A stretch of 64,000 nucleotides of DNA, taken from NCBI GenBank assembly GCA_029961685.1, contig JARWKL010000003.1, positions 14,141,282-14,205,281 of the forward strand. Direction: 5' to 3'. The DNA is from Aristolochia californica (lineage: Eukaryota; Streptophyta; Magnoliopsida; Piperales; Aristolochiaceae). This document shows, one piece after another, positions 15,251-64,000 of this stretch (positions are counted from its first letter, which is position 1; every line of letters begins with the position of its first letter). The translations under genes and the position numbers were made by a program. The notes under the pieces were generated by a model. The model was given only the letters and a program-made list of their open reading frames with translations, searched no databases and was not told the origin of the DNA.

Positions 15251-15636
15251 TGTTAAGCTCCCTTGTCATGGATTGAGTCACCCGACGATCTCCTCTGGGT
15301 TCCAAATTGGAAGACGTCCTTGAGGGAGACTTGGGATTTTTGGAACGCCCTATTACTGAGAAAAACCAAGCTTTCAAAGGAAGCTTTCACCTTGGACCTC
15401 ATTGAGAGAGAGAATCCGATTTCAGGATTAAACTAATGATCAATGCTTAATTCCATTCAAGCATGCGTCCCCTTTATAAGAGAGGACTAGGGTTTGAATA
15501 CAAGGCAAAGGCCAATAACAAGGCCCATGAAAAGAAAGGCAATTACATCTAAACCAATAAAGTGCTTAAACCAGAAAATTACATGATTTAACCGCAGCGT
15601 CTACTAATCACTAGAACTGCTACGGAGTCCATAACA
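15251..15636 (-). repeat. 3' LTR of gypsy-2
   Basis: 386 bp, TGTTAAGCTCCC ... CCATAACA. It sits within copia-1 gag; the base run before it is GTTTA. A chromovirus pol tail abuts its right side, so it is the 3' LTR of a minus-oriented gypsy. No partner LTR was found in the window. Confidence 0.82.
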
Positions 15637-15639
15637 TTA

Positions 15640-15958
15640 CCCCCTTCCTAGAGAAAGAGTTTGTCCTCAATCTCCAAGTGGGGATAAACAGCACGGAAAG
15701 CTTCTAACAGTTCCCATGTGGCTTCAGTAGGGTCAGTCTCGGCCCATTGGACTAAAATCTCCCAGGAACCGTGTACACGTCGAGCCTGCAAAACAAAAGA
15801 TGGAGTTGGCACATGACCATCGAGCATTCCCTCTAGTAACAATTTTTTTTACGGTCGAATGTAGGGATACGTGCCAAACGTGACTACATCTCCCCAAACA
15901 GCATCTCTATCCTCCATCAGTTCTGGACTGGTGTGAACAACCACTCACAGCGCACCCT
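15640..15958 (-). pseudogene. gypsy-2 chromodomain-like pol tail (truncated)
   Basis: The minus frame 15842-15648 shows ARRVHGSWEILVQW, then TEATWELLEAF and LEIEDKLFL, the same chromodomain-like ending as gypsy-1, stopping just before the LTR. The upstream pol is missing: the sequence enters a C-rich tract (about 15957-15981) beyond which no gypsy domains are recognisable. This is a 5'-truncated 3' end. Confidence 0.85.
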
Positions 15959-19289: not shown

Positions 19290-19695
19290 TGTTACGGTCC
19301 CGAATCAGACACAAAGATTCTTTGGGTGGATCTGCAATCTGCCACAGATTACCGTATGGATAGTAAGGATTGAAGGAAGACAATGAAAACGAAAGATCAA
19401 GCTAAAGGGAAGCTTGAAAACCCTAGAGCTCGTTGAGGAGAACTCTAAGCCTCTTTACTCTAGATTTAACCTAATTCTTAATTTTTTCAATGCTTTCTTT
19501 TCTCATTACTCTTACCCCTTAAATAGAGTTCACCCTGTTAGGGTTTAATAAAATATTACAAAAATATTCCTATGAATAAAATATTCCAAAAATATCCCTA
19601 TTAATAAATAATTCCAAAAATACCCCTGTGACCTAAAACTGAAATAAAATAAAGTAAATTAAAGAAAACACTAAAATAATAATTTTATTGCATGC
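19290..19695 (-). repeat. inverted LTR of the compound element
   Basis: Reverse complement of the LTR at 22115-22530, lacking only the last six bases of the LTR tip. It joins plus-oriented interior sequence through the shared palindrome GCATGC (19690-19695). Confidence 0.9.
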
Positions 19696-19877
19696 CGGAC
19701 TGGGGTTCCTTAACCGAGTCAACCCAGGTTAATTCAGACCGGCCCAAAAAAAAAAAAAAACAAAAAAAGAGTGGGCAAACGGAAGGGGGGTCATAGCTAT
19801 CGCGGATGCTACTTCGGCACCGGTGGAGACACTACTTCCGAGATTGACGACAAGCTCGTCTTCCAAGGGAGGTGTAA

Positions 19878-20294
19878 TGTTATGCACGCAATAACATTAT
19901 TATTTTAGTGTTTTCTTTAATTTACTTTATTTTATTTCAGTTTTAGGTCACAGGGGTATTTTTGGAATTATTTATTAATAGGGATATTTTTAGAATATTT
20001 TATTCATAGGGATATTTTTGTAATATTTTATTAAATCCTAATAGGGTGAAACCTATTTAAGGGGTAAGAGTAATGAGAAAAGCATGTATTGAAGTATTAA
20101 GAATTAGGTTAAATCTAGAGTAAAGAGGCTTAGAGTTCTCCTCAACGAACTCTAGGGTTTTCAAGCTTCCCTTTGGCTTGATCTTTCGTTTTCGTTCTCC
20201 ATGTCTTCCTTCAATCCTTACTATCCGTACGGTAATCAGTGGCAGATTCAAGATCCACCCAAAGAATCCTTGTGTCAGATCCGGGATAGTAACA
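19878..20294 (+). repeat. middle LTR of the compound element
   Basis: 417 bp, TGTTATGCACGC ... GTAACA, followed by ATTGGTATCAGAGC (primer site, 20295-20308). It is preceded by a 188-bp tail that matches the interior sequence before 22115, including the GGAGGTG polypurine end. Confidence 0.92.
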
Positions 20295-20353
20295 ATTGGT
20301 ATCAGAGCCGGAACACAATTGGTTATTCTATATCCCAAGAAAGATGGATTGCT

Positions 20354-20647
20354 ATGGGTAAAGAATTGGAAGAAGTACAAGCACGGTTAGATGCTTCAAT
20401 TGAACGTTATGCAAGGGAGCCATGCGCTGTCACAAAACAGGTCACACGACCTGAATTCTCCGAGCATGATAGCGGCATAGAAAACATAGCAGAAGCTCTC
20501 TCGGACGAGAAGACGAAGTATGAAATCCGAGAGTACTTTGTATTGGAAAAGCTCTCCAAACATCCAAAATTCGACGGTGGAGACACTAGAAAAGCAAAAA
20601 CGGAAGGGGCTCACCCTTTCCCAATGGATGCCATGCGTATCTCCTAA
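20354..20647 (+). pseudogene. gag-like start of the compound element
   Basis: A 98-codon frame starts MGKELEEVQARLDASIERYA shortly after the primer site, where gypsy gag normally begins. It is predicted to be helical and charged, then ends at a stop in GC-rich repeat sequence. No gag core or knuckle is recognisable, so it is a remnant at best. A longer upstream frame starts in the LTR but an LTR start is unlikely. Confidence 0.5.
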
Positions 20648-21975
20648 CCGAAGCTGCAACGGGGAGGTGATTTCCTAACAAAGGAAATTCCAAAATCGTC
20701 GGCACTGGAGGATTTGGGGGTGACCGTAAATCCAAAATTGGAGGGGAATAGGAAATTCCTTCGGCGCCTGAGGTGAAATTTCTGACGGAATTTCCGCTGG
20801 TCTCTGTTCCAGGGGGCTGAGAAATAGAGGTTCTCTGTCTCGGCAATGCTCCCAGCGGCGAAGCCCCAACGGACTTCTCTTCGCCACCAGCAAAGCAGGA
20901 TAGTTCGTCGGCGCCGTAAGCGACTTTTCCGCAAGGGATCTCAGTTTCGGGAGGCTGAGCAACGACGATTCACATGTTTCCGAGAGCCCTCTGTCCCGGA
21001 AACTATCCAGGCGGCGAAGACCCGACAGGCTACGATTCGCCACCAAAAAATCAGGCTACTCCGTCGGTGCTGGGATAGAGGAAAGAGACGTTCGTCGCAG
21101 GTCTTCGTCGGTGCCGTGAGGAAAGGACCCGCCAGCCATAGAGTTCGGGAGCTGCCGAAGGAAGAAGTGGAGTCTCGATTAAATTTTCCTAACCCGGTCT
21201 GCTGAGTCGCACGTCGGACCGAAGCTTCAGGGGAAGTTCTCTCGGACGAACAATAGACGAAGTATGAAATCCAAGAGTCCTTTGTCTCGAAAGAGCTCTC
21301 CAACAAAAATCCCACGGCGGAGACACCGAAATTTCAAAAACAGAAGGGGCTCACCCTTTCCCAATGGATGCCTGCGTATCTCCGAACCGAAGCTGCAACG
21401 GGGAGGTGATTTTCTAACAGAGGAAATTCTGAAATCGTCGGCATTGGAGGATTTGGGGGTGACCTCAAATCCGAAATCGGAGGGGAATAGGAAATTCCAT
21501 CGGCACCGTAGGCAAAATTTTCCAGGGAATTTCCGCTGGTCTCTATTCCAGGAGGCTGAGAAACAGAGGTTCTCTGTCTCGGCAGTGCTCCCAGCGGCGA
21601 AGCAGGATAGTTTTTCGGCGCCGTAAGCGACTTTTCTGCAAGGGATCTCGGTTCTGGGAGGCTGAGCAACTACGATACACAAGTTTCCGAGAGCCCTCTG
21701 TCTTGGAAACTATCCAGGCGGCGAAGCCCCGATGGGCTACGATTTGCCATTGGAAAATCAGGCGACTCCGTCGGTGCCGGGAGAGAGGAGGGAGACGTCC
21801 ATCGCCGGCCTTCGTCAGTGCCGTGAGGAAAGGACCCGCCGGCGGCAGAGATCGGGAGTTGTCGAAGGAAGAAGACAAGTCCTGATTCAATTTTCCTAAC
21901 TTAGGAAAATTTAATCGGCCTGGTCCGCTGAGTCGCATGCCGGACCGGGGTTCCTGAACTACGTCAACCTAGATT
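20500..21975 (+). repeat. 740-bp tandem duplication in the compound interior
   Basis: Unit 1 (about 20500-21239) and unit 2 (about 21240-21975) share long blocks at a constant offset near 740 bp, for example CACCCTTTCCCAATGGATGC at 20612 and 21352. The sequence is much richer in GC than its surroundings and open in several frames on both strands, which explains the many overlapping frames. No protein family was recognised. Confidence 0.85.
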
Positions 21976-22114
21976 AACTCGGACCGGCCCATAAAAAAAA
22001 AAAAAAAGTGGGCAAATGGAAGGGGGGTCGTAGCTATCGCGGATGCTACTTCGGCACCGGTGGAGACACTACTTCCGAGCTTGAGGACAAGCTCGTCTTC
22101 CAAGGGGGGTGTAA

Positions 22115-22530
22115 TGTTATGCATGCAATAACATTATTATTTTAGTGTTTTCTTTAATTTACTTTATTTTATTTCAGTTTTAGGTACAGGGGTATTTTTG
22201 GAATTATTTATTAATAGGGATATTTTAGGAATATTTTATTCATAAGGATATTTTTGTAATATTTTATTAAACCCTAATAGGGTGAACCCTATTTAAAGAG
22301 TAAGAGTAATGAGAAAATCAAGCATTGAAGTATTAAGAATTAGGTTAAATTTAGAGTAAAAAGGCTTAGAGTTCTCCTCAATGAGCTCTAGGGTTTTCAA
22401 GCTTCCCTTTGGCTTGATCTTTCGTTTTCGTTCTCTATGTCTTCCTTCAATCCTTACTATCCATACGGTAGTCCGTGGCAGATTGCAGATCCACCCAAAG
22501 AATCCTTGTGTCAGATCCATGACCGTAACA
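22115..22530 (+). repeat. right LTR of the compound element
   Basis: 416 bp, starting with the near-palindrome TGTTATGCATGCAATAACA and ending CCGTAACA. A CAAGGGGGGTG purine tract precedes it. Confidence 0.92.
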
Positions 22531-57104: not shown

Positions 57105-58197
57105 ACGGTAATTGTGGTTTTGCCCTACCTTGGAGTGGCGTACAATGGATACGGTGGGTCATTCCGGTGGTCTAATGGTTCTCTAGAACTCTTGCCTGGT
57201 CGACCTCACGGATCTTTGCCTTGGTCAATTTTTATTACTTTGAAATTCCGTGACTGCTGCCTTGGTTGCATTTGGGGGCTTGCCGGAGTATATGGACCCA
57301 CTTGATACCGACAACGTGAATCTTTTTGGGAGGAGCTTCACAATCTTCTTCAACGATGGTCACTGCCTTGGCTCATTGCGGGTGATTTCAATGCGATCAA
57401 ATTTTGCAATGAAAAATCCCCTCCTGCCACTTCTATTTTCACTTCCATGAGAAGTTTTACAGACTTTATAGGGGTTACGGAGATGGTTGAGATTCCTTTA
57501 TCTAGAATGACATTCACTAGGTCGAATGGGTAGAAACAAGCTAATCTCTCTAAGCTGGACAAATTTATTGTGAGTAGCGATTGACTCCAGATCTATGAAG
57601 ATGCTTCGGGCAAGGTTCTCAACCTGGTGGGATCTGGTCGATTCTCCTTTCTACATCTTTTGGTAGATGGGGTCCTACTCCCTTCTGCTTTGAGAACTCT
57701 TGGTTACTCGAGGTGGATTTTGATCACCTCCTTGTTGATTGGTGGTCCGACTTTACCAATGGTCATCTTGCAGAATGGGACCTCCCTAAAAAACTTAAGC
57801 TTCTCAAAGGTAAGTTGAAGTCTTGGGCCTCCCACCTGAAGTCCTCCCTTGGTGCCAAGAAAATCTCTATCACTTCCCAAATTGATGTCCTTGACCAAGC
57901 TGAAGAACAAAAGTACCTATCTAATTCTGAATTCTCTTCTTGCACTACTCTTCAAGCTCATCTTTTTGCTCTTCTCCACTCGGAGAAAGTGAGATTGAAG
58001 CAACGTGCCTGCTTTAGATGGCTAAAAGAGGGAGATACCAATACCAAAAAATTTCAAGTCGTCGCCTCGGCGAGGAGGACTAACCGAATTACCTCGTTGT
58101 GGGTGGACAATGAGGTAACTTCGGAAAAGTCCTCCATTACTGATTCTCTGATCAAGTTTTATGCAGATCTCTATTTATAGTGCCCTCATCATCCTAA
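57105..58197 (+). pseudogene. L1 LINE ORF2, endonuclease and pre-RT region (decayed)
   Basis: The endonuclease shows a VYGPT block near 57290, FWEELHNLLQRW, then PWLIAGDFNAIKF (GDFN motif) near 57365-57400, RMTFTRSNG and LSKLDKFIVS near 57510-57575. A 155-codon frame at 57713-58180 has the pre-RT signature CFRWLKEGDTNTKKF and ASARRTNRI. It stops at 58178 just before the inserted retrotransposon. Multiple earlier stops. Confidence 0.88.
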
Positions 58198-58543
58198 TGT
58201 TATGGACCCAATAGTGAGCCGAGTCAGGCTGAAACACCATTGCCGAGTTAATTACTCTGACTGAGTTAACTATATAACCATATAATTTATTTCAGGTTAA
58301 ATGTTATAGAAGGGTAAAATTGTAATTCTCTCTAGAACAGTAGATCATAAGCCCTATTCAAGGGACATCAGGGAACGAAATGGCAAGTTGAATTTGAAAC
58401 AGACTCCCTCACAGGTTACGGACTCCCTCGTAACCGGGTTATCCCTCGCCGTTCGTCTATATGATTCTTCTCCCTTTCGTTCTCTTCTTCTTAGTATCAC
58501 CTTCGTCTTCCCCGGTGAATCTCCGTGTTGATCTGGGACATCA
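58198..58543 (+). repeat. 5' LTR of the gene-capturing element
   Basis: 346 bp, TGTTATGGACCCAATAG ... GGGACATCA. It lacks about 50 bp that are present in the 3' LTR, around the repeated GTTACGGACTCCCTC blocks. Confidence 0.93.
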
Positions 58544-58560
58544 TTTTGGTATCAGAGCAG
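58544..58560 (+). promoter_or_regulatory. primer binding site of the gene-capturing element
   Basis: TTTTGGTATCAGAGCAG follows the LTR; TGGTATCAGAGC is the initiator-Met tRNA complement. Confidence 0.88.
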
Positions 58561-58618
58561 GTTCACAACGAGCGATGCTTCGTTCCTAGATGAAATAGCC
58601 GCGGCGCTCCGTGATAAA

Positions 58619-59338
58619 ATGGCCGAAGGCCGCACAGAAAGGATTTCAGCAATACGGGAGATGTGTGCGCTGCGCACAGCAATATGGGAGGACATACATC
58701 AAGCTTTCAGCGAAAATCGTCGGGCTAATGATGCTGAGAGGAGGGTCGTCGTTGTGGTAGAAGACGTTCAACCTCGAATCTCTTCGGAAAAGCCCGATTC
58801 CGGCGTTCAGCCTCAAACCTCTTCGGAAAAGGCCGATGTGGGTTCACAGGTCTTCGTTCGACCTAATTCCTCTGAACGTGGAACTCCCGAGCCGAAAACC
58901 ACCGTCGTGAAAATCAAAGTCGGGGAGAATGGCAATCCCCGAGCAGAGAAGATCCACGCCAAATCTCGGCCAGAGGCCTCTGCTATTCGCCGACGGCCAA
59001 AGCCTCCGAAGGTCATGAATTTCGGCGACAAAGGTGTTGGGCAGAGCTCGTCGTTAAATCGACAGGGAGAGTACACATATGCAGACAGGAAAGACCAGAA
59101 ATCCAAAAATTTTAATTTCGAATTGGAAATGGTGGTTGTGGCGGAAGATGAGATTCTTGAGAAACCGACGTTTGGCGTTGGAACCAGGGGTGGGGGTGAT
59201 GCTCCGTCCACTGCTGGGCTCCTTTCCGACAAACTCAGCAAAGAAATTGCGTCCAGCGAGGCTGAGGTATGGAACAAAATTAATTTCGGGGCCAAGCTGG
59301 GTGATGGTGGAACCCCTCAGATCCTTGACGTCGGCTAG
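58619..59338 (+). pseudogene. gag-like frame of the gene-capturing element
   Basis: A 239-codon open frame: MAEGRTERISAIREMCALRT, a helical start, then a charged low-complexity region (RRRPKPPKVMNFGDKG) and an acidic part, ending ILDVG. Its position after the primer site fits gag, and the start resembles in style the short frame at 20354. I see no gag core or zinc knuckle. It could be an uncharacterised element protein, and it is intact as a frame. Confidence 0.5.
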
Positions 59339-59559
59339 CTGTTCGGACGGCCGCCGGTTTATCTGCTTCCGGCCGACTGCCGCGTGAATCGAAAATGGGA
59401 GAAAGGAAAAGAGCGCCAAATGTGGAAGACAGGGCGACAGACGGAGGAGAAATCTAGACTGATGATTCCTGATTCGGATAAAGCAGACCAAATGTTTGTT
59501 GTTTGGTTCGAAGACGATGTGCAAGTTCTTTTAGACAGAATTCAATCTGCCCGACGCAG
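59339..59559 (+). other. unassigned interior of the gene-capturing element
   Basis: Open in part but without recognisable family; lies between the gag-like frame and the first captured fragment. Confidence 0.45.
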
Positions 59560-60017
59560 CATGAATTTAGCAGCAACTATGCCTGGGCATCTCTTGGATA
59601 TGAAAATTGGTTTGAACTTTGCTACTTTTGCTAATGGGAATAGCAGTTTGCCTTCAGGACTAAATTGTCTACAGAGGAGCTTTCCCTACAACTGAGTTTC
59701 TCCACGCTATTCTTCAATTGCAGTCAAATGTGGTGTTTAAGTATCACATCTTCTGGGGACACAATGTTTGAAACTGATAATGATCGATTGGGTCCTGTAT
59801 CATACAGTGTGGCTAGCTCACAAAAATGGGTTGTCAGTAACACAGGAAAAATTATGGAAAATAAAAATGCATCATATATCATATCCTCCTTATTCCAATT
59901 CACAATTACATTGGACTCAGAGCTATTCCAAACAGCAAGAATATCACCAAGGTCCTTAAGGTACTATGGCCTCGGGCTTGAGAATGGGAATTATACCTTG
60001 AATCTGGAATTTGCAGA
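59560..60017 (+). pseudogene. captured fragment of a malectin-domain LRR receptor kinase
   Basis: The plus strand reads SSLPSGLNCLQRSFPYN (the end of the LRR/linker part, normally followed by a CNRG-type stretch). After a frame change it reads DTMFETDNDRLGPVSYSV, QKWVVSN, QFTITLDSELFQTARISP and LRYYGLGLENGNYTLNLEFA. That is the malectin domain of the plant LRR-RLK VIII-2 type. The intact protein would be a membrane receptor kinase; here only part of the ectodomain remains, with no signal peptide, transmembrane or kinase part. It is fused directly to PPR sequence near 60018. Confidence 0.88.
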
Positions 60018-60357
60018 GTTCAAAGCAATACATGAACTGCTGGGTCAAATGAAAGAGAAAGAGATCCCATTCAAAGAGTCTATAATTATTTTGATCATGA
60101 AAGGGTATGGAAGGGCTTGTTTGCCTGGGCAGGTTACTCAGTTTCTGAGAGAAAGGAAGGATCTCAATAACTGCCAACATTCAGATCACATTATGTTGTT
60201 CTTGATGTATTAGTTTCAGAAAAAGGCCACACAATTACTCCAAAGGTTCTTGCTGAAATGATCCATGAAGGTATTCCTCCAACTGTTTATACATTCTCTA
60301 TTGTAATGAAAGCCTTGTGTGCAGTGAAAGAGGTTGGTACTGCGGTTTTGCTTCTTG
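60018..60357 (+). pseudogene. captured fragment of a PPR protein
   Basis: The first part, KAIHELLGQMKEKEIPFKES, then IMKGYGRACLPGQVTQFL, is a typical pentatricopeptide repeat. After frameshifts it continues as VLDVLVSEKGHTITP-like and EMIHEGIPPTVYTFSIVMKA, LCAVKEVGTAVLLL. About one repeat appears missing between them. PPR proteins bind organelle RNA; only two or three repeats remain. The fragment is joined to the flippase fragment near 60358. Confidence 0.8.
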
Positions 60358-61782
60358 GAGATTCAGAGCTTCGTAATACCCAATACATCTATGGTGTGGT
60401 TATTTTTAGTAATCCAGATGCACAAGTAGTCCAAAATTCCACAAGCTCACCTTCTAAGAGAAGCTGCATACAGAGAAAGATGGATACAATTATCTATGTT
60501 CTCTTTACTATGCTCATTTTGGTTTCCCTTGTCACTGTCATTGGGTCTTCTTTATACACAAAGTTTGAAATTGTGAATTGGTGGTATCTTCAACCTGGTG
60601 AAAATGATCCCTTCTATAATCCATAGAATCCACCTTTGGCCGGAGGGCTACAGTTCATAAGGGCACTTATGCTTTATGGTTACTTGATTCCAATCTCTCT
60701 CTATGTCTCTATTGAAGTGGTCAAAGTATTACAAGCTATGCTCATCGATTGGGATGTACAACTGTTTGATGAAGAAACATGCAGCTCTGTTGAAGCTAGA
60801 ACTTCAAACTTAAATGAAGAGCTAGGTCAGGTTGAGATGCTCTTGTCTGACAAAACTGAAACACTCACTTGTAACCAAATGGAGTTCAGAAAGTGTAGCA
60901 TTGCAGGAGTTTCATATGGGGGTGACGTAAGTGAAGTTGATTTAGCTGCATCACACAGAATGAATATAGATTTGGAGAAATTCGTGTTCAGTTGTGACAG
61001 GTCAAATCTTATGAGTAGTCCAAGTTTTGATAATTTTGATTTCTCAATAGCAGATAGTACTACCAAAAATCAAGCCCGTGGTCACCATGTTTCGGAGTAT
61101 CCTATCCTTTCTGGTGGACAACTTCAGAAGCATTTGCAGAATGAAACCCCAATTAAGGGTTTCAACTTCAAGGATGATCGGCTGATGCACAATAACTGGG
61201 TCAAAAGCGGCCGTATTTTTTGAGATAGCAATGTTTCTCAGGGTTTTGGCCCTATGCCATACTAGACTACCTGTTGAAGAAGATGACACAGGCAAGTTGA
61301 CATATGAAGCTGCGTCACCTGAAGAAGTAGCTTTCTTAGTTGCTTCGTGGGAGTTTGGGTTTAGATTCTCTCAAAGAACCCAGTCTGTCATGTCAGTTAG
61401 GGAACTTGATCCCAACGGGATTGAAGTTGAGAGGCCGTACAAGCTTCTAAATCTTCTGTAATTTAGAAATTACCGTAAAAGGATGTCTGTCATCGTGGTG
61501 GATGAAGAAGGACAGATAATTCTTCTATGCAAAGGAGTTGCTAGCATTATCCTTGATAGGCTTGCGGAAACTGGCAAGTTATATCAGCCATAAACAGTGG
61601 TACACCTCTAAGATTATGCAGAAGATGGCTTGAGAACTCTGGTGTTTGCATATAGCAAGCTTGGTTCATCAGAGTACCCAATCTGGAGCTCAATATTTGC
61701 AAAGGCCAAGACTACAGTTGGCCCAGAGAGAGAGAACTTGCTGGAGAATGCATTTGACATGATTGAGAAAGATTTGATCCTC
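60358..61782 (+). pseudogene. captured fragment of a P4-ATPase phospholipid flippase (ALA type)
   Basis: The frame runs ELRNTQYIYGVVIFS, SPSKRSCIQRKMDTIIYVLF (membrane segment), GLQFIRALMLYGYLIPISLY (membrane segment), SVEARTSNLNEELGQVEM, then the phosphorylation motif LSDKTETLTCNQMEF, in which the invariant Gly of DKTGT is Glu. The N-domain follows with SPEEVAFLVASWEFGF and a damaged CKGVASIILDRL. It ends at EKDLIL. Stops or frameshifts lie near 60624, 61220, 61459 and 61590. It covers roughly the middle third of a flippase; no introns are seen. Confidence 0.93.
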
Positions 61783-61890
61783 TTATATGTTGGCAGTTAC
61801 CAGATATCATTTGGTCCAGTAAGTTGGTTGATGGTGTCTGAGATTTTCCCACTTCGAACTAGAGGTTGCACAGTACGGTGTATGCTTTAA
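61783..61890 (+). pseudogene. captured fragment of an MFS sugar transporter
   Basis: In frame with the end of the flippase piece, the sequence turns into LYVGSYQISFGPVSWLMVSE, IFPLRTRG. This is a conserved stretch of plant monosaccharide transporters of the plastidic/vacuolar glucose or xylose-symporter type, including the cytosolic-loop motif E-x-F-P-L-R-x-R-G. A stop follows within 10 codons. It is short, but the match is distinctive. Confidence 0.78.
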
Positions 61891-61920
61891 GATCAATAAT
61901 TGTTGTAAGTAACAGACCCC

Positions 61921-62130
61921 ATGGAGATTGATTCCAGTGGCGCAAGACAAACCAAAAAAAAAAAAAAAGTTGTTTCTTTTGTAGGTGGAACCAGCAGGAC
62001 TGTTTCGCACCCCACAAAATTTACTACGCACATAGTTCAAGTGGGTGCTACTTGGGTTGATGTAGATGAAGTCGACAAGCCTACCCACCTTCGAGCTCGT
62101 GGTCGAGATCATTCTCCAGGAGGGGTGTGA
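61921..62130 (+). pseudogene. element-derived tail frame before the 3' LTR
   Basis: A 69-codon frame ends HLRARGRDHSPGGV with its stop overlapping the polypurine tract, one base before the LTR. Chromovirus pol often ends this way, and the same arrangement (LVFQGGV-type end) precedes the LTR at 22115. An A run lies at 61957-61972. I read it as the last remnant of the ancestral pol 3' end. Confidence 0.55.
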
Positions 62131-62527
62131 TGTTATGGACCCAATAGTGAGCCGAGTCAGGTTGAGACATCGTGGCCGAGTCAATTACTTTGACCGAGTT
62201 AGCTATGTTGTCATTTAGTTTATTTCAGGTTAAATGCCATAGAGGGGCAAAATTATAATTCTCTCTAGAATCGTAGATCATGAGTCCTATTTAAGGGACA
62301 TCAGGGAATGAAATGGCAAGTTGAATTTGAAACAGAAATAGGGTCAAGGTTCTCCTCTGACGAACCTAGGTTGCGGACTCCCTCAGAGCCGTAGGTTACG
62401 GACTCCCTCAAAGCCGGGTTATCCCTTGTCGTTCGTCTCTACGATTCTTCTCCCTTTCGTTCTCTTCTTCTTTGTTATCACCTTCGTCTTCCCCGATGAA
62501 TCTCCGTGTTGATCTGGGACCATATCA
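62131..62527 (+). repeat. 3' LTR of the gene-capturing element
   Basis: 397 bp, TGTTATGGACCCAATAG ... CCATATCA; its other differences from the 5' LTR are scattered substitutions. Confidence 0.93.
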
Positions 62528-64000
62528 CCTAAGTTCTAGCACCTCAACTTTGCCAAAATATCCAAAGCTGCTGCCTCCTTGATTGAGCTCCCTTTCGTTG
62601 AGGTGGAAATTGAGAAGGTTGTTCTTGGTATGACATGTGACCGTGTGCTTGGACCGGACGGATTAAACGGAGATTTCTGTCATAGAGTTTGGCCTTGTAT
62701 TAAGCAAGACGTACACAATATGGTTCAAGGTTTTGACAAGAATGGCATCACCTTTAGAAGTATAGGGGCTTCTTTTATTGCCTTAGTTCTGAAGAAAGAA
62801 AATGTTGAGCAGCCAGTGATTTTCGGCCCATAAGCCTCATCCTCAGCTCTTACAAAATTATTGCTCGGCTCCTCACTTGGCATTTGAAGTCCCTCCTTCT
62901 TGGTCATCCACAATGGTCAGGGTGATTTCCTAAGGGGGAGGAACATCCTTGACTCTTCCATGGTAGCTCACAAGCTCCTTGACCATTTCTCCTGCTTTAG
63001 TTGCCTGCTCTAGTTGCCCTCGGTTTGCCTTGAAGCTTGATCTTGAGAAGGCATTCGACATGGTTAATTGGGATCTTTCTTTCTTATGATGACCTTCTAG
63101 GTCAAATGGGCTTCAATGACTGTTGGAGGGGTTGGATTAGATCATGTGTCTCATTAGCCTCTTTCTCCCTCCTTCTCAATGGGACTGCTTGTGGCTTTTT
63201 TAAGGGCTCCAGGGGTATTCGGCAAGGGGATCCGCATTCCCTTCTCCTATTCAATATTGTGGCTAAGCTTCTATCGGCCATGACTTATCGGGCTAAAGAG
63301 GTTGGTTGGCTTGGGCCGATTAGCAATTGTGAGGCTTTTGACATTCCCCTTCTCCAATATGCGAATGATACCTTACTGTTCGGGGTCGGATCCTTGGACT
63401 ATATTGTGAAGATCGGCTTTATTGGGGCTTTTTGAGATTGTATCAGGGCAGAAAGTCAATTGGCAGAAATCATCTCTAGTGGGGTTTAACATCAACACAG
63501 ATGAACTCCGATCCATGGCGGATTTCTCTAGCTGTTCTATATCTACCCTCCCCACCACATACCTCGGTCTCCCTCTTTTTACATCCAGCATCAGCAAGGA
63601 CTTATGGAGCCCGATTATCGAGAGATTGGATCGCCGGTTGGCTACCTGGAGGGGTCCTTTTCTATTCAAAGTTGGGAGCTTTACTCTACCCAAATCTTGT
63701 TTTTTTGGGATCCCAAACTATTTCCTCTCGTTCATGCATTGCCCGACCGTGATATGTAATCAGATTGATGGCATGATGAGAAGATTCCCTTGGCAAGGCA
63801 CCTCTTCCGAGTTTAAGTACCATCTAGTGAGATGGTCAGATGTCTGCATTCCAAAATCTAGGGGAGGTCTAGGTATTAGGCTCTCCAAGGACATGAACAT
63901 GGCCCTCCTCCTTAAGAAGATTTGGAAATTCAACACGGTTTGCAATAATCTATGGAGACCTATGGTGGCATCCAAGCTTAATCAACATGAGTTCTGGTGG
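62528..64000 (+). pseudogene. L1 LINE ORF2 reverse transcriptase (decayed, runs off the window)
   Basis: After the second CCTAA the L1 frame resumes: IELPFVEVEIEKVVLGM, GPDGLNGDFCHRVW, then KLDLEKAFDMVNWDL (first catalytic Asp kept), GIRQGDPHSLLLFNIV, and LQYANDTLLF where YADD is expected, so one catalytic Asp is Asn. Further on, STLPTTYLGLPLFTSSISK, and KSRGGLGIRLSKDMNMALL near 63855-63920. Many stops. The RNase H end and poly-A tail lie outside the window. Confidence 0.92.

Follow-up and report, generated by a model that had tools for sequence, protein, structure and literature searches.

Cargo and anatomy of the element

In a 64,000-nt stretch of the Aristolochia californica genome (contig JARWKL010000003.1, positions 14,141,282 to 14,205,281, forward strand; hereafter the window), positions 58198-62527 are occupied by a non-autonomous long terminal repeat (LTR) retrotransposon of 4,330 bp whose cargo consists of four host-gene fragments arranged head to tail (Table 1). 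An earlier note on this DNA had described LTRs, a primer site, a polypurine tract and CCTAA target duplications enclosing pieces of four unrelated genes in the sense of the element. Reading of the sequence and LTR alignment located each of these structures where the note had placed it, and profile searches and parental matches bore out the four same-sense donors: a malectin leucine-rich-repeat receptor-like kinase (LRR-RLK), a pentatricopeptide repeat (PPR) protein, a P4-ATPase and a sugar transporter. The ends of the element are direct LTRs, and no terminal inverted repeat was found. The LTR pair shows 88.3% identity over aligned bases (gaps of 41, 6 and 1 nt) and a Kimura two-parameter distance of 0.130, compared with 0.075-0.137 in the six relatives described below, the window values being computed with a 5' slice extended 10 nt beyond the LTR. 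We take the primer site to be of the initiator-Met tRNA type. The leader has a 268-codon open frame (58532-59338), for which profile and protein searches gave no significant Pfam or protein match. A profile search of eight scanned frames of the element found no pol domain; the element is without its own gag-pol and is non-autonomous.

Table 1. Features of the element and its target site (window positions).
Feature	Positions	Strand	Basis or match
Left target-site duplication (TSD), CCTAA	58193-58197	.	read from sequence
5' LTR (TGTTATGG...ATCA; TG...CA ends)	58198-58543	+	aligned to 3' LTR; ends read
Primer binding site TGGTATCAGAGC, 3 nt past 5' LTR	58547-58558	+	read from sequence
Leader region	58560-59338	+	common to other family members
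Repetitive interior segment	59477-59633	+	15 matches elsewhere in genome, 79-85%
Malectin LRR-RLK fragment, two exons joined	59645-60024	+	parent C57:24265624-24266477, 94-95%
PPR fragment	60016-60356	+	parent C1:59211087-59211431, 93%
P4-ATPase fragment, three parental exons joined	60349-61796	+	parent C68:21222291-21224211, 89-95%; TIGR01652
Chimeric P4-ATPase/transporter open frame, 92 aa	61612-61887	+	open reading frame list and profile searches
Sugar-transporter fragment, two exons joined plus 3' untranslated region (UTR)	61778-61946	+	parent C2:27882359-27883117 (L056), 87-97%
A15 run at cargo/tail joint, after ACAAACC (61947-61953)	61954-61968	+	read from sequence
Conserved family tail; TTGTTTCTTTTGTAGGTGGAACC from 61970	61969-62130	+	compared in 20 tail loci
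Polypurine tract GGAGGGGTGTGA	62119-62130	+	read from sequence
3' LTR	62131-62527	+	aligned to 5' LTR
Right TSD, CCTAA	62528-62532	.	read from sequence

The cargo was identified by profile searches (malectin, PF11721, 3.8e-13; transporter, Sugar_tr, 6.7e-6; P4-ATPase, four consecutive pieces at TIGR01652 positions 180-624), the PPR piece reaching 1.2e-6 and 28.9 bits with PPR_2, slightly below the cut-off of 30. No relative of the P4-ATPase piece was found among the viral contigs searched. We then searched the 659.6-Mb assembly (521 contigs; the window lies on contig C221). As the note had anticipated, the best-matching gene for each donor lies in the same genome, each on a different contig (C57, C1, C68 and C2), with 87-97% identity per aligned piece. 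These genes are probably the direct donors rather than close relatives of the donors; for malectin, a tandem paralogue at C57:24243103 matches nearly as well.

All four parental introns spanned by the window cargo are absent, again as the note had expected. The malectin intron (473 bp, GTAAGT..TTTCAG) is missing at 59708/59709, as are P4-ATPase introns of 78 and ~430 bp and a transporter intron of ~140 bp (GTAGCC..TTTTAG); the PPR match is a single unbroken piece and is uninformative on this point. The malectin piece begins at an apparent parental 3' splice site, and the transporter piece leaps from exon 2 to its own 3' UTR, its end corresponding to a parental position 10 nt beyond AATAAA. Neither this leap nor the repetitive segment at 59477-59633 had been mentioned in the note. 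The passage of the P4-ATPase piece in frame into the transporter piece is also real, although the resulting chimeric frame is a relic, as the P4-ATPase piece upstream of it holds an in-frame stop (60624-60626) and a frame change near 61200.

Relatives, lost introns and the A-run joint

Sister copies with other cargo, for which the earlier note had proposed a search, are present in the same genome. Scoring the best 40 of 100 leader candidates and the best 40 of 70 3' candidates, we obtained at least 53 matches to the leader query and at least 47 to the 3' query, the window included in each. Six relatives can be read from LTR to LTR. They carry four kinds of cargo, all in the sense of the element: pyruvate kinase and H+-pyrophosphatase (C24a); MCM-binding protein, H+-pyrophosphatase and triosephosphate isomerase (C500); aldehyde dehydrogenase and phosphofructokinase (C111, with C2a and C2b alike); and a C2-domain protein, an MCM-binding piece and an M28-type carboxypeptidase (C46). 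Cargo identity was assigned by profile search, and for C2a and C2b by DNA similarity to C111 (93-95%). The TSDs are exact 5-bp repeats in three relatives and 4-base matches in two, with none in C46, and the seven elements measured span 3.4-4.6 kb. The 3' LTR of the window element is nearer to that of C24a (93.5%) than to its own 5' LTR, and the LTR tree is poorly resolved; for these reasons we give no insertion age.

Loci recognized by a common tail, leader or cargo, rather than by reading from LTR to LTR, add PP2C, TPR, MutS, mitochondrial carrier, TIP41, serine carboxypeptidase and sorting nexin 1 to the donors, with weaker matches to a patatin-like protein (below cut-off) and a carbamoyltransferase (9e-4, below cut-off). 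With the window's four, 21 donor genes match at E 1e-3 or better, or about 20 allowing for weak ones. Frames of relatives without any family numbered 1 of 10, 2 of 6, 4 of 10 (L036 and three of L061) and 3 of 6 in four scan sets. The four donors claimed for the window element thus stand, yet they are not the maximum: L061 contains at least five (patatin-like, malectin, PPR, P4-ATPase and sorting nexin pieces), and a sixth segment looked for in that locus was not confirmed.

In L025 (the C500 element) the isomerase message apparently runs from start codon to 3' UTR and A-run and is joined in frame to the H+-pyrophosphatase piece, and in L017 and L033 (the C111 element) aldehyde dehydrogenase and phosphofructokinase pieces form one open chimeric frame of 534 residues. 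At L074 and L075, Ty3/gypsy elements are nested beside or within cargo-bearing members.

Intron loss extends to the sister cargo. In L043 all five gaps between parental P4-ATPase exon matches are absent, as are 8 of 8 for triosephosphate isomerase, 8 of 8 for glutamate-carboxypeptidase-like cargo (one 41-nt match set aside) and 2 of 2 for MutS, the last three counts being taken from match tables rather than from read splice sites. Over window and sister cargo, about 25 parental introns are absent and none was seen retained. The isomerase and carboxypeptidase cargo each match a single parent at 89-98% over nine exons.

The tail that follows the cargo has a recurrent motif, an A-run plus TTGTTTCTTTTGCAGGTGGAACC. 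We surveyed the stretch ahead of conserved GTGGAACC in 20 tail loci (the window and 19 others), which are the best-scoring of the 47 matches. The tail starts with a close form of TTGTTTCTTTTGCAG in 16 of them (exceptions are L033, L037, L039 and, within the fixed survey interval, L040), and in these 16 loci similarity to the cargo stops directly ahead of the tail start. A run of at least 8 A residues occurs in 13 of the 20, compared with 12 of 6,400 overlapping control intervals taken 120-1,400 nt upstream; the score of 2 for L040 reflects an A-rich stretch situated beyond the fixed interval. By cargo group, runs of at least 8 are present in five of eight, and a run of 6 in one more. The tail motif TTGTTTCTTTTG(C/T)AG (window 61970-61984; TTTCTTTTGCAG/G), kept in most tail loci, has a likeness to a plant 3' splice site.

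The cargo ends were compared with their parents at three places. Past the ends of the transporter, isomerase and carboxypeptidase pieces the parental DNA continues without an A-run, while in the elements an A-run sets in 7, 0 and 1 nt after the break, respectively; the isomerase break is 20 nt past the parental AATAAA. In L090, one of the shorter tail matches, where no parent was compared, carboxypeptidase and PP2C pieces are followed by AATAAA, 26 nt, A15 and the tail. Since a poly(A) tail is not encoded by the gene, these joints point to mature mRNA. The A-tail of the transporter mRNA alone was rejected as the origin of the run, because A-run and tail are common to relatives with other cargo, and for the same reason we adopted the reading that the A-run is a docking site.

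Elsewhere in the window, 15611-15678 (- strand) has a short 82% match to the tail/LTR boundary of the L061 group and is probably another relative. A second LTR element or tandem pair lies at 19690-22530 (LTR starts TGTTATGC at 19878 and 22115; primer site 20297; direct repeat 92%), with A15 runs at 19746-19760 and 21993-22007, 118 and 108 nt ahead of the LTR starts, like those of the capture family.

Proposed capture by template switching and its alternatives

We propose that host mRNAs were captured by template switching during reverse transcription, a reading to which we give a probability of roughly 85%. Element RNA would be packaged together with mature host mRNAs, and minus-strand synthesis entering from the 3' LTR would copy the tail as far as the A-rich tract. 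From this tract synthesis would move onto a co-packaged mRNA at its poly(A) tail and copy the 3' UTR and then the spliced coding region. Further switches at 6-8-base matches would lead either to other mRNAs or to RNA from another element with cargo, before synthesis finally returned to the leader. The residual A-run would enable the next capture at the same place. On this view the element has, immediately within its 3' end, a poly(A) docking site that renews itself: in each round any polyadenylated mRNA could replace the cargo, and a fresh A-tract would be left. In our judgment this view has about an even chance of being correct; if so, the family would act as a standing cassette-exchange machine joining spliced host exons in sense orientation. 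Within this scheme we infer the co-packaging, the sequence in which the switches occur, the docking site's renewal and where the reverse transcriptase comes from.

The joints between donors bear directly on this scheme. Microhomology, which the earlier note had predicted at 2-8 bases, amounts to 8 bases at the malectin/PPR joint (GAGTTCAA), 8 at PPR/P4-ATPase (CTTCTTAG) and 6 at P4-ATPase/transporter (CTCTTA), lengths attained in random joins between these parental loci with probabilities of 2e-4, 2e-4 and 2e-3 per joint. None of these joints has an A-run. We compared the window's five joints with a part of all matching loci, so that the counts are lower bounds. The malectin/PPR joint recurs in at least 12 other loci (L059-L067, L069-L071) and the PPR/P4-ATPase joint in the same twelve plus C13 and C24b, whereas among the loci compared the P4-ATPase/transporter and transporter/tail joints occur elsewhere only in C24b and the joint of the repetitive segment with malectin nowhere else. 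The twelve loci are 85-88% similar to the window piece. Because subsets of the window's joints occur in other loci, the parts were captured at different times and then recombined, for which switching between packaged element RNAs is the simplest route. Spliced cargo and microhomology thus support the note's proposal of template switching between packaged mRNAs, with the amendment that the array was built over several rounds, perhaps partly by exchange between element RNAs.

This recurrence invites another explanation, in which captures were few and ancient and most of the diversity arose by recombination among cargo-bearing elements with no continued mRNA capture. Modules and joints common to several loci favour it, as does the exon-2 breakpoint of the transporter, which is identical in a longer transporter copy in L040. 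Cargo groups nevertheless end at differing 3' sequences, mostly with an A-run, about 20 different donors are involved, and the isomerase and carboxypeptidase cargo match single parents as given above; we consider this explanation improbable.

A-runs and spliced cargo are also what processed copies made by a long interspersed element (LINE) and landing successively within an LTR element would leave. The window element in fact appears to be inserted in a LINE: a frame beside it (63034-63435) matches RVT_1 at 6.4e-5, below cut-off, open frames at 57599-58180 and 62540-62833 flank the LTRs without a Pfam match, and the LINE label is in part our assumption. LINE-made copies would each have their own TSD and poly(A) and no LTRs, while here the LTRs and one TSD enclose the whole element. 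The cargo is moreover sense-oriented in every case examined, the A-run always adjoins the same tail, and the window's donor-donor joints have 6-8-base matches in place of A-runs, which makes such nesting very improbable.

Microhomology is a feature of DNA end-joining as well, and capture at the DNA level, by gap repair or illegitimate recombination with parental loci, would account for the matches at the joints. It is contradicted by the absence of about 25 introns and has against it the A-runs missing from parental DNA at three cargo ends, so that we give it hardly any weight. Least probable of all is read-through transcription of neighbouring genes (3' transduction), known in other retroelements according to an excerpt of a review (PMC13317346), as the parents lie on C57, C1, C68 and C2 and the element on C221, which contradicts it, and the A-run is inside the element, upstream of the tail.

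Several observations weigh against capture by template switching at a poly(A) docking site. In the L036 group the A-rich stretch contains no run longer than 5, and the aldehyde dehydrogenase/phosphofructokinase group (L033, L037, L039) lacks an A-run where cargo and tail meet; poly(A) is therefore not the sole capture route. An A-run is likewise missing at the tail of L061, the only member of its group that was inspected. The survey took the 20 highest-scoring of 47 tail matches, and related loci are non-independent. For carboxypeptidase, the parent lacks AATAAA within 100 nt of the cargo end, and seven other bases stand between the transporter piece and the A-run in the window copy. Given the breakpoint common to L040, the transporter piece may derive from the RNA of another element rather than from a fresh mRNA. 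The leader frame has no known homologue in the protein search, and no autonomous partner was found among the loci examined. The gypsy pol sequences that precede the cargo in L028 and L024 were rejected as such partners, since each has an LTR pair of its own (96% and 88%) and is a nested insertion, and L090, considered as an autonomous copy, is instead another cargo copy. The reading as a whole is drawn from genomic sequence, and the mRNA ends are predictions rather than RNA data.

Comparison with known systems

Direct LTRs without a terminal inverted repeat (TIR), together with absent introns, distinguish the family from Pack-type TIR transposons and Helitrons, in which introns are usually kept. 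Helitrons are recognized by their ends; here the contrast with them is made through the absent introns.

Published LTR systems are compared below as excerpts of the cited papers describe them. In maize, the LTR element Bs1 contains parts of three host genes and has a chimeric gene (review PMC13317346); its host-gene parts are exons only (PMC4717578). The window element likewise has intronless sense fragments of several host genes within LTRs, a likeness of description and not of sequence; three donors there contrast with about 20 here over many copies, with an A-run joint. In soybean, the terminal-repeat retrotransposon in miniature (TRIM) GmaRetroS15 carries pieces of three host genes as exons without introns, and gene-bearing TRIMs measure 1,172-1,449 bp, have 5-bp TSDs and mostly occur in two or more copies (PMC4717578). 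Exons without introns, several host genes and 5-bp TSDs are common to both, whereas the elements described here are not of miniature size (3.4-4.6 kb) and have far more donors. Maize B73 has 425 intact LTR elements bearing host gene fragments, from at least 189 captures, a likeness to our family; the excerpted survey reports no element with fragments of more than one nuclear gene under its conditions (PMC2774510).

Regarding mechanism, in LTR-mediated retroposition (Tan et al., reviewed in PMC5408686) mRNA and LTR-element sequence become joined at microsimilarities while reverse transcription proceeds, which resembles the template switching at short matches proposed here; a recurrent poly(A)-tract docking site is not described in the excerpted review. 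The reverse transcriptase of yeast Ty1 also copies cellular RNAs (PMC7175516), the products being processed pseudogenes there and cargo inside LTR elements here.

A limited literature search found no A-run-anchored capture family and no capture on this scale. Gene capture by LTR elements is itself already known. The element lineage seems to acquire host mRNAs again and again while copying itself. It would be a natural exon-shuffling system, in which spliced chimeras of several genes come to lie between LTRs, and might give rise to small RNAs directed at the parent genes. LTR-element gene capture has so far been argued from few cases, whereas here many captures occur in one lineage and one genome, where parents, lost introns, microhomologies and A-run joints make donor choice, the number of switches and the docking site measurable.

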